From Kangiella sp. (GTDB taxonomy: Bacteria > Pseudomonadota > Gammaproteobacteria > Enterobacterales > Kangiellaceae), in the NCBI RefSeq assembly GCF_014762745.1, contig NZ_JABURJ010000101.1:1-34327 (forward strand): DNA of 34,327 nucleotides. The letters are read 5' to 3'. Numbering within the stretch: position 1 is the first letter of the stretch; every line of letters begins with the position of its first letter. The notes under the pieces were generated by a model. It had not been told where the DNA came from. It saw nothing but the letters and a program-made list of their open reading frames with translations, and did not search any database. Positions 15,045 through 20,015 of the stretch are shown here, piece by piece. The position numbers and the translations under genes were made by a program.

Positions 15045-16199
15045 TTGGCACGATTTCACTTAGAACAACACCAGGACTCAGTTCATGTCGAAACTGTTTT
15101 CAACGCTGAGCGCTTGCAGGAACTTTGTCAGTCCTGGCAAACGCTTGACTTTATCGCAGTAGACACAGAGTTCGACCGAACTAATACCTATTTTCATCGG
15201 CTGGCGCTCATCCAAATATACGATGGAGAAGAGGTCTACCTTATTGATCCTCTTGCCTTTGACGATATTTCTGCCTTAACCGATATTTTTAAAACGACTT
15301 CAGTCGTTAAAGCATTCCATAGCTGTAGCGAAGATCTGGAGGCACTTTATCATCAATATGGTTTTGAGCTGAATCAGGTTTTTGATACGCAGATCGCCGC
15401 CTCTTTAGATGGCATTGGATTAAGTGTTGGTTATGGCAGTATTGTTGAGCATTTTCTGAGCCTGGTACTTGATAAGGAACACACGAAAACTGATTGGCTA
15501 CAGAGGCCATTGAGCCAAGAACAGAAAGTTTATGCCGCACAGGATGTTCAATATCTTTTGCCTGTCTACTACCGACTACGAGATAGCCTGCTGGAAAAAG
15601 GGCTTTTTGAGTGCGTCATCGAAGACGTTAATAGTATTTTCTCGGCTATCATTCAGGCCGATGATTATTCGGAAGCCTATTTGAAAGTGAAGGGCGCTTT
15701 CCGATTAAATCAGTTTCAATTGAATCGCTTGCAGAAGTTAGCTCAATGGCGAGAAACTCTTGCTCGCGACAATAATATTCCTAAAACCTTTGTCTTTCGC
15801 GACCATCATTTGATTGAAGTCTGTCAGAAAGAAAAGACGACAATTAGCGACTTGCTTTCGATGGGCTGTAACCGCGGCAGTATTCGTAAGTATGGCGCCG
15901 AACTGATTCGCCAGATTGAGCTGGCCGACCAGGTTAGCAAAACAGAATGGCCAGAGCCTTTGCAGCCCTTTCACAAGATCCCACAAAGCAAAAAAATGTT
16001 CAGCGCCTTAAAGGCTGAGGTTGAGAATGTCAGCCAGGAGCACAATATTCCCGCTGAAGCTTTATGTAATCGCCGTCTGATCGAGTATTATATCAAGATG
16101 ACGCTTGGCTATAAGGGGCGACCAAACCGTTTCTGGAACAGCTGGCGTCAAAGTCTGCTGGAACAGCCATTCAAGCAGGCGATGCAGGAATTCCTTTAA
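15045..16199 (+). CDS. rnd: Ribonuclease D
   Basis: 3'-to-5' exoribonuclease of the DEDD family that trims tRNA precursors and other small stable RNAs. The DEDDy residues are all present: D40 and E42 (VDTEF), D97 (CSEDLEAL), and Y163 with D167 (YAAQD). Two HRDC-like regions follow (about residues 210-290 and 300-380). The 384 residues match the E. coli protein (375). The start is TTG at 15045 with AGGAG 8 bases upstream; E. coli rnd is also known to start with UUG. A hairpin touches this ribosome-binding site. The fadD-rnd order is the same as in E. coli. Its likely substrates include the tRNA-Asp precursor encoded about 1 kb downstream. Confidence 0.95.
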   Translation: MARFHLEQHQDSVHVETVFNAERLQELCQSWQTLDFIAVDTEFDRTNTYFHRLALIQIYDGEEVYLIDPLAFDDISALTDIFKTTSVVKAFHSCSEDLEALYHQYGFELNQVFDTQIAASLDGIGLSVGYGSIVEHFLSLVLDKEHTKTDWLQRPLSQEQKVYAAQDVQYLLPVYYRLRDSLLEKGLFECVIEDVNSIFSAIIQADDYSEAYLKVKGAFRLNQFQLNRLQKLAQWRETLARDNNIPKTFVFRDHHLIEVCQKEKTTISDLLSMGCNRGSIRKYGAELIRQIELADQVSKTEWPEPLQPFHKIPQSKKMFSALKAEVENVSQEHNIPAEALCNRRLIEYYIKMTLGYKGRPNRFWNSWRQSLLEQPFKQAMQEFL

Positions 16200-16510: not shown

Positions 16511-16963
16511 ATGACGTTTGATAAGTTTTGGCTCACCACAGCGTTGAAGGATATGACCCACGAACAGTGGGAATCCCTTTGCGATGGTTGTGCCAAATGC
16601 TGCTGTGTTCAGTTTATTGATGATGACGATGATCTTTTGATGCAGACCGACGTGTCCTGCCAACTGCTCGATACCAATACTCTCCACTGCAAAGACTATC
16701 AAAACAGAACCTCAAAAGTACCTGACTGCGTTCAATTGACCGCAGATACGATACAGGAATACTTCTGGTTACCAGATACCTGTGCTTATCGCTTGGTAGC
16801 GGAGGGCAAAGACTTGCCCAGTTGGCACTATTTACTATCAGGAGACAAAGAGCTGGTGCATAAGAAAGGGCATAGCATCAAAGGAAAAGTCATCTCCGAA
16901 ACCAAGCTAACAGCAGAAGAAGTAGAGGATAGAATTATCTCCTGGATCCCGCTATCCGATTGA
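16511..16963 (+). CDS. ycgN: YcgN family cysteine-cluster protein (UPF0260)
   Basis: 150-residue protein of the YcgN/YkgJ cysteine-cluster group. The motif SLCDGCAKCC near residues 22-31, further Cys at SCQLL, HCKDY and DCVQL, and the WLPDTCAYRLVAEGKDLPSW block are conserved with E. coli YcgN. Clustered cysteines suggest metal binding, possibly zinc or iron-sulfur, but the role is not known. It starts 2 bp after ycgL. No terminator hairpin follows immediately, and the tRNA promoter lies 68 bp downstream. Confidence 0.92.
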   Translation: MTFDKFWLTTALKDMTHEQWESLCDGCAKCCCVQFIDDDDDLLMQTDVSCQLLDTNTLHCKDYQNRTSKVPDCVQLTADTIQEYFWLPDTCAYRLVAEGKDLPSWHYLLSGDKELVHKKGHSIKGKVISETKLTAEEVEDRIISWIPLSD

Positions 16964-17030
16964 AAAACAACCAAATTGGCTAGCATTTAAGCGCATTTTT
17001 AAAAAGTTAAATATTTTTCTAAAAAAGTTG

Positions 17031-17059
17031 TTGACCTACCCTAAGAACGACAGTAATAT
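17031..17059 (+). promoter_or_regulatory. Strong sigma-70 promoter for tRNA-Asp with GC-rich discriminator
   Basis: TTGACC (17031-17036) and TAATAT (17054-17059) are separated by exactly 17 bp. An A/T-rich tract at about 16996-17029 upstream resembles an UP element. The bases after the -10 box are GCGCTCCG, a GC-rich discriminator of the kind linked to stringent control of stable-RNA promoters. The tRNA begins about 65 bases after the expected start of transcription. Confidence 0.85.
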
Positions 17060-17130
17060 GCGCTCCGTCGACCGATGAGGTCACCAGCGAAACACCTGTT
17101 AAGACTCGTAAGAGACCTAACAAATACTGC

Positions 17131-17207
17131 GGAGCGGTAGTTCAGCTGGTTAGAATACCGGCCTGTCACGCCGGGGGTCGCGGGTTCGAGTCCCGTCCGC
17201 TCCGCCA
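17131..17207 (+). tRNA. tRNA-Asp (anticodon GTC)
   Basis: 77-base gene with encoded CCA. The acceptor stem GGAGCGG (17131-17137) pairs with CCGCTCC (17197-17203), the discriminator base is G, and CCA is at 17205-17207. The anticodon loop CTGTCAC (17163-17169) carries GTC at 17165-17167 and is closed by CCGGC/GCCGG. The T-arm is normal (GGGTTCGAGTCCC). It is preceded by a strong promoter and followed by a terminator. Its last bases recur exactly downstream at 17417-17440. Confidence 0.98.
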
Positions 17208-17212
17208 CTATA
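17189..17212 (+). repeat. tRNA-Asp 3' end, copy 1 of a 24-bp direct repeat
   Basis: From the T-loop AG at 17189 through CCA to CTATA at 17212. It is identical over 24 bases to 17417-17440, giving a period of 228 bp. Confidence 0.95.
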
Positions 17213-17214
17213 TT

Positions 17215-17241
17215 AAAAAGCAGCCCTTGGCTGCTTTTTTT
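17215..17241 (+). terminator. Terminator directly after tRNA-Asp
   Basis: GCAGCC, loop CTT, GGCTGC, then seven T; A-rich on the upstream side. It lies between the tRNA and the structured unit, so the latter needs read-through or its own promoter. Confidence 0.88.
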
Positions 17242-17416
17242 GTGTCTGCTCTAAATAGGGATGAGAACCCGCGAGCGGGGTTCGACAAGCTTCAAGGATG
17301 AAGCGAATACTTGGAATGCAGGAGCAATTCCAAGTGAAAATCGTCTGGAACGATTTTGAACGTTGACGCTTTGCGGCAACGGCCACGAAGTGGTCAATTA
17401 CAGGGAAGTAATTGAT

Positions 17417-17440
17417 AGTCCCGTCCGCTCCGCCACTATA
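17417..17440 (+). repeat. tRNA-Asp 3' end, copy 2, at the end of the structured unit
   Basis: An exact 24-base copy of 17189-17212, including the 3' T-stem, the 3' acceptor strand, CCA and CTATA. No tRNA body precedes it; a 5' T-arm-like GCGGGGTTCGA lies 130 bases upstream at about 17275-17285. Confidence 0.95.
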
Positions 17441-17442
17441 CC

Positions 17443-17471
17443 AAAAGCCTGCTTTCGAGCAGGCTTTTTTT
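17443..17471. terminator. Terminator ending the structured unit; probably bidirectional
   Basis: GCCTGC, loop TTTCGA, GCAGGC, then seven T on the plus strand. The minus strand reads four T after the stem, so it can also end the convergent gene at 17497-17961. Confidence 0.88.
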
Positions 17472-17496
17472 ATGCTTGCATTTTTTTACGCTGACC

Positions 17497-17961
17497 TCAT
17501 GGTTCCACAGCCTGATGATCGTAGCTCACCACTCGTTTCACTACCCAGCTACCATCTTCACGCTCCCAAATGGTTATAAATTGAGATTTCTCAACCAAGT
17601 CACCGTCAACATAAAAGTTGTGCTTCCCGGTTTGTAGAGCGCCATATTCGCCTAGTGGATGTATCTCATTTGAGACTAACTGACGTGTAACCTCAAAGGG
17701 TTTGGAGCACTTATCTTGAAAAGACCTTACTTCTTTTTCATAAGAAGTGTTTAAGCCTGTCCTGTCATCATAAAACTCAATATTTTCACTAACAATTTCT
17801 TTCCAGACTTCTATGTTGCACTGATTGAATGCTATATCGAATAATTGGAAATCCATTGCCTGGATTTCCTTATTAAGCGCTTCATGTTCCTTTTGTGAGG
17901 CCTTGCCATAAGCCGCTGTTGATATAAAACAAATCACCAATGTAGTTATCAAAAGTTTCAT
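17497..17961 (-). CDS. Secreted DUF4440/SnoaL-like protein
   Basis: 154-residue protein with a clear signal peptide (MKLLITTLVICFISTAAYG) and a mature domain of the NTF2-like fold, DUF4440 type. The typical WKEIVSENIEFYDDRTG segment and the C-terminal strand FITIWEREDGSWVVKRVVSYD are present. The open frame extends 44 codons further, but the ATG at 17961 is chosen because it starts the signal peptide and has AAGGAA just upstream. NTF2-like domains bind small ligands or act as minor enzymes; no function can be assigned here. It is transcribed towards the tRNA-Asp locus. Confidence 0.82.
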   Translation of the reverse strand: MKLLITTLVICFISTAAYGKASQKEHEALNKEIQAMDFQLFDIAFNQCNIEVWKEIVSENIEFYDDRTGLNTSYEKEVRSFQDKCSKPFEVTRQLVSNEIHPLGEYGALQTGKHNFYVDGDLVEKSQFITIWEREDGSWVVKRVVSYDHQAVEP

Positions 17962-18093
17962 AGGATTCCTTGAACTGTATTTGTATGACTTATTATTGTA
18001 TGTGAGCTGACTTATGAAGAGTGTTAATAATTTGTAAGTAGAAGTTGAGAGTATGCATTGAGCAGAGCTTTTATACCTATTAATAGCAGACAC

Positions 18094-18137: not shown

Positions 18138-20015
18138 TTATTCACCGACACACATACAGTGCGCATAGACATGGTTTGGATCGTTGAAGTTGTTGAAGAT
18201 ATTGACGATCTTTTGGGCGCGTCCAAGAACGTGACCAATGATGTCTGTCTCGCCGTTACTAAGCTGGGCAATGACTGCATCAAGCTTACCTTCAGCTTTT
18301 GCATTTTCCAGCAAGTTTCGGATAAAGATTTCTTCAGCACTCAATTCACGCTTGATGAATTTTACGGCGTAATCATCACCAATATTTGCTAACTTAGCTG
18401 CCGACTCAATGGCGTCTTCAAGATCCCCCAGTTGATCAACCAGACCTAAGCGGTGTGCATCTTCACCTGACCATACGCGGCCCTGTGCGATTTGATCCAC
18501 TTCTTCTTTGGTCATGTTACGGCCTTTGCCAACAAGCGTCAGGAAGCGGTCATAACCATGCTCAATGTTACGCTGGATAAGCTGAGCAAACTCAGGAGAT
18601 ATGCCATCCATTGGATCGAAGGCTAATGTCCATTTAGTTGTGCCAACACCATCGCGGTATACGCCCAATTTATTCAATGGTTCTTCGAAAGTCGGAACCA
18701 TGCCGAAGATACCAATTGAACCTGTGATGGTAGTAGGGTGCGCCCAGATTTCATCCGAAGTGGCTGAAATCCAGTAACCACCAGAGGCTGCAACACCGCC
18801 CATTGAAGCAACCACGATTTTGCCTTCACTCTGTGCACGCTCCAGTTCATTACGAATCACTTCAGAAGCAAAGGCGCTGCCTCCTGGGCTATCAACGCGA
18901 AGAACGATCGCTTTCACTTTGTCATCAAGGCGAGCTTTCTGAATCAAGCGAGCAGTACTGTCACCACCGATAACACCTTCTTTGCGGCTGCCGTCAACGA
19001 TTTCACCTTTAGCAACGATTACAGCAACTGTGTCTTTATTCGTTGGAAGCTCAACCAATGGGCGAACAGCTTTCAGGTAGTTTTTATGGCCGATGGCTTT
19101 ATAAGAATCTTTGTCTTCATTCAAGCCAACCATATCAATCATGTACTGACGGAATTCGCCACGAGTCATCAGCTTATCAATGAAGCCTTCCTGAACTGCT
19201 AACTCACCACTGTCGCCATTAGTAGCTTCAAACTTGGCTAAGTAGTTTTCAACGAAGTCATCAAACTCTTCAACAGACATGTTACGTGATGCAGCCAGTT
19301 CCTGTTTCATGTGTTTCCACAGATCGCCCATCCATTCCATATTCGCTTCTTTAGCGGCTTCTGACATGTCGTCGCGAATGAAAGGCTCTACTGCTGATTT
19401 GAAGGTACCAACACGGAATACATGAACGTTAACGCCCAAGTTGTCTAATGCTGATTTAAAGTAGGTGTTATTGCCACCAAGACCTTCAAACATCAACATG
19501 CCGTATGGATTCATATAAACTTCATCAGCAACCGAAGCAAGATAGAACTGCCCCTGCATATAGTAATCACCAACCGCGATCACTTTTTTGCCGCTTTCTT
19601 TAAATTCATTAATCGCTTCGCGTAAATCCTGATATTTACTGATCCCTGCATAAACGCCCTGTAGGCTATTAACGTTAATCACCATCACGCTGATGCGATC
19701 ATCGTTTTTAGCGTACTCAATAGCATCGAGTAGGTCATAGATGGAGGTTTCGTTTGGTGCGATACCTTGCGCTTCCTGCATGGCGCGCTCGATTGGATCA
19801 AGATAGGTTTCCTGTTCAACGATAATGCCTTTAGGTGCAAGAATAAGCGCAGCGCCATCGTCAATCTTTGGCAGATCTGGGCCACTAGTGCAGCCGCGAA
19901 CGAACAATACGAAAATGGTTAATGCGATAAGGCCAATCATTAATCGGCCAGCCACATCGATAGTCTTCCATATACGGTAAAAGAATTTACCGATCATTGA
20001 GTTTGGTTGTGACAC
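18138..20015 (-). CDS. sppA: Signal peptide peptidase SppA (67K type)
   Basis: Membrane-anchored serine protease that degrades cleaved signal peptides on the periplasmic side. An N-terminal membrane helix (about residues 22-41) is followed by two tandem S49 domains. The Ser-Lys dyad is split between them as in E. coli: K206 (RVGTFKSAVEPF) in the first and S411 (GGVAASGGYW) in the second; the E. coli residues are K209 and S409. The length is 625 residues. The start is GTG at 20015, with AAAGG about 8 bases upstream; an ATG seven codons in is the alternative. The C-terminus ends in an unusual cysteine-bearing tail (AHCMCVGE). It is divergent from fadH. Confidence 0.95.
   Translation of the reverse strand: MSQPNSMIGKFFYRIWKTIDVAGRLMIGLIALTIFVLFVRGCTSGPDLPKIDDGAALILAPKGIIVEQETYLDPIERAMQEAQGIAPNETSIYDLLDAIEYAKNDDRISVMVINVNSLQGVYAGISKYQDLREAINEFKESGKKVIAVGDYYMQGQFYLASVADEVYMNPYGMLMFEGLGGNNTYFKSALDNLGVNVHVFRVGTFKSAVEPFIRDDMSEAAKEANMEWMGDLWKHMKQELAASRNMSVEEFDDFVENYLAKFEATNGDSGELAVQEGFIDKLMTRGEFRQYMIDMVGLNEDKDSYKAIGHKNYLKAVRPLVELPTNKDTVAVIVAKGEIVDGSRKEGVIGGDSTARLIQKARLDDKVKAIVLRVDSPGGSAFASEVIRNELERAQSEGKIVVASMGGVAASGGYWISATSDEIWAHPTTITGSIGIFGMVPTFEEPLNKLGVYRDGVGTTKWTLAFDPMDGISPEFAQLIQRNIEHGYDRFLTLVGKGRNMTKEEVDQIAQGRVWSGEDAHRLGLVDQLGDLEDAIESAAKLANIGDDYAVKFIKRELSAEEIFIRNLLENAKAEGKLDAVIAQLSNGETDIIGHVLGRAQKIVNIFNNFNDPNHVYAHCMCVGE

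Follow-up and report, generated by a model that had tools for sequence, protein, structure and literature searches.

The window, a stretch of 34,327 nucleotides of Kangiella DNA, contains on its forward strand a tRNA-Asp (GTC) gene with an encoded CCA (17131–17207; ARAGORN; Rfam RF00005, 68.9 bits). This gene is preceded by the genes for an RNase D-like protein (15045–16199) and a CxxCxxCC protein (16511–16963, between the RNase D-like gene and the tRNA-Asp unit); behind the unit, on the reverse strand, come the genes for a DUF4440 protein (17497–18093) and the S49 peptidase SppA (18138–20015), the latter sharing 96% identity with its K. aquimarina counterpart. A consensus scan identified a candidate sigma-70-type promoter of the unit (TTGACC-17-TAATAT, 17031–17059, forward strand), followed by the GC-rich discriminator GCGCTCC, and the genus members compared have similar sequence before their tRNA-Asp. 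The same scan detected three promoter-like sites in 16900–17500, with 0.5 expected; a weaker-placed site (17282–17311) lies inside the unit.

Between the two terminators predicted by a pattern scan, T1 (17215–17241, stem 17215–17239) and T2 (17443–17471, stem 17443–17468), the forward strand carries seven hairpins. The 5' boundary of the unit, GGGATGAG, which is similar in units at other tRNAs, together with hairpin P0 (GAACCC..GGGTTC) occupies 17258–17283; in the minimum-energy fold, some of P0 is paired with the copied tRNA tail (see below) rather than with itself. Two extra hairpins, A (17289–17304) and B (17310–17334), each with AGGA in the loop (17295–17298 and 17320–17323, respectively), are followed by the four hairpins of the core: H1 (17337–17357; loop TCTGGAA, with CTGGA at 17345–17349), the palindrome of which is found repeatedly elsewhere in the genome; H2 (17361–17381), which lacks GGA here and is of the tandem G-A type in several relatives; H3 (17382–17394; loop GAA); and H4 (17395–17414; loop AGGGAA, 17402–17407). 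The account of the first-pass annotation, namely, seven hairpins between two terminators with GGA in the loops of four (A, B, H1, and H4), is confirmed, positions included. The segment 17417–17440 is identical to the 24 bp at 17189–17212 that comprise the 3' end of tRNA-Asp from the T-loop and the five next bases, CTATA; the unit therefore closes with a copy of the 3' end of its host tRNA, a feature that the first-pass annotation had overlooked and the hallmark of the tRNA-linked repeats (TLRs) of E. coli.

The region 17208–17475 folds at −101.8 kcal/mol, compared to a mean of −73.8 (sd 4.5) for 200 shuffled sequences (z −6.2). In the minimum-energy fold of 17258–17435, four of the six hairpin loops contain GGA, whereas none of 500 dinucleotide shuffles had four or more such loops (mean 0.4, maximum 2; length-based P = 3.5e-4), a test that is post hoc because the motif was picked after being seen. 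The fold of the opposite strand of this segment contains zero GGA loops. The plain motif ACANGGANGT by itself shows no enrichment, with 78 matches in the genome vs 76 for a reversed control. A plasmid search returned only short matches, covering at most 13% of the query.

Homology to RrB and distribution of the core

TLRs were first described in 1978 and occur in tRNA or rRNA operons, with one to five at a locus. E. coli K-12 has 22 of these elements, including RrA, RrB, and RrF (Rudd 1999, as cited in PMC8144298). Each E. coli TLR closes with an 18–19 bp copy of the 3' end of the tRNA or rRNA gene that precedes it, and RrA, RrB, and RrF are the TLRs of rrnA, rrnB, and rrnD, located between T1 and T2 (PMC8144298). 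The Kangiella unit shares with these three the order of a stable-RNA gene, T1, a four-hairpin core with GGA in the loops of H1 and H4, a copy of the 3' end of the host RNA, and T2. Unlike them, it has tRNA-Asp rather than 5S rRNA as its host and carries two extra GGA hairpins, and its expression and CsrA binding are predicted by analogy. With its location in a tRNA operon, where a single unit is present in the window, and its end copied from the upstream tRNA, it also resembles the tRNA-operon TLRs of E. coli. However, the 19 such TLRs score below 0.01 for CsrB-likeness (PMC8144298), whereas many tRNA-linked units in the present survey keep GGA loops.

For comparison across genomes, two covariance models were built. 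The first, R1, comes from an alignment (A1) of 11 Kangiella units located behind tRNA-Asp (8) and tRNA-Ser (3). The second, R2, has 11 rows, drawn from Kangiella as well as other genera, all of them R1 matches or R1 rows themselves and most with GGA, but no E. coli row; the H1 and H4 loops were masked because an unmasked model would find the GGA it contains. The E. coli K-12 RrB, downstream of rrfB, is matched by R1 at 50.9 bits and by the GGA-masked R2 at 50.8 bits (E 2.5e-8); Kangiella unit and RrB thus share a common sequence-structure core, and both lie between terminators. The match to E. coli tyrTV was weak (R1, 15.5 bits; R2, 12.7 bits, E 0.18). At E ≤ 1, R2 found no match in four further E. 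coli tRNA loci, which may or may not hold TLRs, nor in 858,586 bases from 71 unrelated loci, the majority from other phyla.

R1 matched 18 of the 20 Kangiella genomes and, in an order-level sample, 30 of 99 genomes and 17 of 54 genera. In a class-level sample of 369 gammaproteobacterial genomes, R2 matched 73, which represent 65 of the 272 genera sampled. In a phylum-level sample, 30 of 299 genomes were matched, 20 of these from one family outside Gammaproteobacteria, in which the three checked units with a tRNA in the locus sit behind tRNA-Gln or tRNA-Asp. We examined 74 R2 hits in 51 loci (49 from the class-level matches and two from E. coli), which were the best-scoring loci plus 20 chosen by hand: 36 hits are on the 3' side of a tRNA or tmRNA gene, 10 are on the 5' side, and 28 are unlinked, RrB being counted among the latter because 5S rRNA was left unscored in this test. 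Half of the 3'-linked hits (18/36, in 13 loci) end in 19 nt identical to the 3' terminus of the host tRNA.

The hosts are diverse. In Kangiella, units with the same core follow tRNA-Ser(GCT), Ser(GGA), Tyr, Glu, and Val, and in other genera, tRNA-Val, Lys, and Glu, and copy the 3' end of their own host. An own-tail copy of at least 11 nt is present at 11 of 17 scored loci, including the tRNA-Asp unit of G007, and shorter at the remaining six (L196, L200, L201, L208, L209, and L222); L207, which starts inside the host gene, was left out of the scoring. Locus L235 has 5S rRNA as the host and a 17-nt repeat, with no GGA loop in the unit, and in L289, four units follow one tRNA-Gln.

Several RNA families that could have accounted for the unit were compared with it. 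CsrB and RsmZ were rejected: neither model reaches its gathering threshold anywhere in the window, and 17205–17480 gives no match to them at E values up to 10. Across the whole genome, the CsrB model reached at most 11.8 bits, and the best RsmZ match, at 28.2 bits (E 1.4e-4), is under the cut-off of 44, with sub-cut-off signals also in 8 of 14 control genomes. The idea of CsrA titration by GGA hairpins is common to CsrB/CsrC, RsmX/Y/Z, and the Kangiella unit; unlike those RNAs, the unit has fewer sites, is linked to a tRNA promoter, and matches neither family model. TwoAYGGAY (RF01731), for which CsrA binding has been predicted (PMC4333381), similarly has GGA hairpin loops, with a different architecture; it yields 28 matches at E ≤ 0.1 in the genome and 0 in 14 control genomes, but membership of the unit was rejected, the unit itself being without an RF01731 match. 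The AaHKsRNA22 model (RF02902) scores 17.4 bits on the window, against a gathering score of 39.8; it also overlaps two weak R1 matches, L238 and L240, at 80.5 and 78.7 bits. Unlike the Kangiella unit, these two loci lack GGA loops, and AaHKsRNA22 may be a GGA-less branch of the RrB-type family. The CsrR1 and CsrR2 RNAs of Alcanivorax come from other loci, the hfq 5'UTR and the vicinity of a ferredoxin gene (PMC9788540).

Taken as a whole, the Kangiella tRNA-Asp unit is almost certainly a TLR of the RrB family, ordinary in kind and new in its place, behind tRNA-Asp of Kangiella. The first-pass annotation knew of no CsrA sponge attached to a tRNA gene; in suggesting that nothing of the kind had been described, it was wrong, given that TLRs, and CsrA-binding TLRs behind 5S rRNA, had already been published (PMC8144298). 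A literature search on tRNA-tied CsrA sponges, TLRs, rtT RNA, AaHKsRNA22, Kangiella and CsrA, and CsrA and extragenic repeats found the RrB paper to be the closest, within mainly non-subscription literature, so that earlier reports may exist.

Conservation of the GGA loops

The four helices are supported by covariation. In A1 (11 rows), 98.5% of the cells are paired, both partners vary in 10 of 26 pairs, and the covariation score is 0.250 vs 0.087 for shuffled alignments. In the larger alignment A5 (71 rows), both-side changes occur in 23 of 26 pairs, with a score of 0.455 vs 0.129 shuffled and at most 0.073 slid; A5 was fitted to the structure of the model, and the two pairs at the outer end of H4 are broken in 47 and 45 of the 71 rows. 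GGA is present in the H1 loop of 57 of the 71 distinct copies (5.4 expected) and in the H4 loop of 58 (4.5 expected), compared to 4 and 2, respectively, for a TCC control in the same sequences; the H2 and H3 loops contain GGA in 2 and 4 of the 71. All four bases occur in front of the triplet, both in H1 (G 37, T 12, C 4, A 4) and in H4 (G 25, A 21, C 6, T 6). With the preceding bases varying and the stems covarying, the GGA triplets thus outlast both the stems and their neighbours. The conservation may derive in part from common descent. Neither loop contains GGA in 8 of the 36 R2 hits located 3' of a tRNA or tmRNA.

The tRNA-Asp site was compared, with units judged by eye, across 20 Kangiella genomes including that of the window (G000). 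A unit is present behind tRNA-Asp in nine (G000, G001, G003, G004, G005, G007, G008, G010, and G018), with two tandem units in G007; decayed or truncated remnants are seen in three (G002, G012, and G017); and in eight (G006, G009, G011, G013–G016, and G019), the unit is absent from this site. The unit is therefore dispensable. A second tRNA-Asp copy in the genome of the window (G000b) also has no unit. Where the unit exists, reading by eye shows GGA in the H1 loop of all nine genomes and in the H4 loop of eight, the exception being G018 with AAAGAT. Thus, the pattern that the first-pass annotation had named as evidence against its proposal, with stems retained in relatives and GGA loops lost, is not seen at this site. 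Hairpins A and B are common only to G000 and G001 among the genus members compared. The order of T1 and T2 in G000 is reversed relative to G005 and G001, which would fit loss of units from a longer tandem array.

The genome of the window contains 40 core matches, and six sites were inspected by eye: that of tRNA-Asp; those behind tRNA-Val(GAC), tRNA-Arg(ACG), tmRNA, and csrA-tRNA-Ser(GCT); and three tandem units before tRNA-Ser(GGA). By this inspection, both H1 and H4 contain GGA in the units at tRNA-Asp, tRNA-Val, and tmRNA, and GGA is absent from these loops at the other three sites. The genome has one csrA match. In three Kangiella genomes, csrA is directly upstream of tRNA-Ser(GCT), followed by a TLR-type unit (L099 1501–2064, L035, L179, and L294) that has GGA loops in G003 and G012 and none in the genome of the window. 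A feedback interpretation of this csrA-tRNA-Ser-TLR order was rejected: the unit in the window's own genome has no GGA loop, and csrA is located beside serV in E. coli as well. The same genome and its relatives also contain dispersed elements that consist of two core units back to back (for example, L004, L005, L006, L008, L182, and L183); in L005, such an element adjoins a TwoAYGGAY match.

Possible mobility of the core and rival explanations

Units upstream of tRNA-Ser (L278, L270, L245, L259, L301, and L180) carry a copy of the 5' part of the tRNA, up to 37 nt long, that is interrupted in the anticodon or D loop, and are sometimes tandem; they look like 5' counterparts of TLRs. Inspection by eye places the core within the anticodon loop of the tRNA copies in L270 and L278, and within the D loop in L245, L259, and L301. 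In L309 (G532:C29:60300-61500), at about 370–680, two repeats at the edge of an array, called CRISPR-like from its repeat-spacer pattern, are interrupted within their hairpin by core-like units; each unit is followed by the repeat's own 3' half, and seven intact 35-nt repeats adjoin. The split tRNA copies and split CRISPR-like repeats suggest a mobile hairpin element. At L269 (1389–1577, reverse strand), a core unit and the beginning of a group II intron match (RF02001) overlap, possibly because the unit is inserted in the intron.

These observations bear on an explanation under which the core is a selfish, mobile hairpin repeat that spreads and lodges at structured-RNA genes, with the GGA loops serving the element, for example by letting some enzyme recognise its hairpins, and the host gaining nothing. 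In its favour are also the presence/absence polymorphism at one site across Kangiella, the range of hosts (tRNA-Asp, Ser, Glu, Tyr, Val, Lys, Gln, Arg, Pro, Thr, tmRNA, and 5S), the tandem units and numerous matches within one genome, several core-matching loci with no tRNA within about 1.5 kb, and the retention of GGA in unlinked copies at least as well as in linked ones (26/28 and 24/28). Against it stand the match of the loops to the CsrA motif and the reported binding of CsrA by RrB (PMC8144298), along with the flanks of unlinked copies, which pair no better than permuted ones (359 of 1000 permutations as high). The latter result, with that for 3'-linked copies (386 of 1000), also led us to reject general insertion of the core into hairpin loops; for the eight 5'-linked copies, flank pairing was borderline (58 of 1000). 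This test covered 72 of the 74 hits, with a hand-made class list slightly different from that of the linkage test. We regard the selfish explanation, the main rival, as unlikely, albeit of appreciable weight, and it is compatible with CsrA binding.

Two simpler explanations fare far worse. The hairpins and the second tRNA end could serve as a spacer for 3'-trailer processing or termination, protecting or timing the maturation of tRNA-Asp, with the GGA triplets incidental. The position of the unit after the tRNA and between terminators agrees with this, and competition of the copied tail for tRNA-processing enzymes is conceivable; nevertheless, the occurrence of tRNA-Asp genes with no such unit (eight of the 20 genomes, and G000b) and the retention of GGA loops far above chance make such a role quite improbable. 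Kangiella genomes do contain many dispersed palindromes, as would be expected if the unit consisted of chance or ordinary intergenic hairpins, but the family-wide covariation, the exact tail copies, and the homology to RrB leave hardly any room for this.

A putative CsrA-binding RNA from the tRNA-Asp operon

In E. coli, RrA, RrB, and RrF are read-through transcripts that bind both CsrA and Hfq; CsrA was the most enriched protein in an RrB pull-down, and a gel shift of RrB with CsrA was seen from 50 nM, with an affinity of about 100 nM, and was abolished when three GGAs were changed (PMC8144298). The same source describes the effects of RrB deletion and overexpression in vivo as modest, and the role of TLRs was "not fully understood" as of Stenum et al. 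2021 (PMC8144298). Because the Kangiella unit is homologous to RrB, whose CsrA binding is published, a co-transcribed CsrA-binding RNA is the best-supported reading, and this part of the first-pass proposal stands. The notion of a CsrB-like sponge is weakened by the RrB affinity of about 100 nM and its modest effects (PMC8144298), and by several sister units that lack GGA. All things considered, the unit is probably an RrB-family TLR that gives rise to a read-through CsrA-binding RNA acting as a modest decoy. Judging from RrB, the RNA would be quite likely to bind CsrA in vitro; that it is a physiologically important CsrA sponge appears doubtful.

By analogy with RrB, the sequence of events could be as follows. 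Transcription would start at the tRNA-Asp promoter, and a fraction of the polymerases would read through T1 and stop at T2, although T1 appears strong, which counts against read-through. Processing of the tRNA would free the 3' trailer as an RNA of about 180–230 nt, which could hold one or two CsrA dimers via its four GGA loops and would then decay, a short-lived, growth-rate-coupled, modest CsrA decoy, as has been suggested for RrA, RrB, and RrF; growth-rate control of the Kangiella RNA is plausible. Recombination between the direct repeats would alter the number of units. A functional RNA from the 3' trailer of a tRNA precursor has a parallel in 3'ETS-leuZ, a tRNA trailer sponge of RyhB and RybB (as cited in PMC8144298), which acts by base pairing with sRNAs, whereas the mode proposed here is CsrA binding.

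A broader scenario, which we put forward tentatively and hold to be possible rather than probable, is that the TLR/RrB core, an array of hairpins, is mobile among the stable-RNA genes of Gammaproteobacteria and bears a conserved pair of CsrA-type GGA loops, its copies being located at or in the T, D, and anticodon loops of tRNAs, behind 5S rRNA and tmRNA, and inside CRISPR-type repeats; that many tRNA operons thereby release growth-rate-coupled CsrA-binding RNAs; and that TLRs add a level of CsrA control throughout the class. Should the class-level result hold, it would usefully widen a poorly understood family, with one covariance model uniting RrB with tRNA-, tmRNA-, and 5S-linked units. The question whether TLRs serve CsrA then becomes answerable by gel shifts and CLIP data, and the units suggest a possible, simple means by which the cell could couple CsrA activity to tRNA synthesis.
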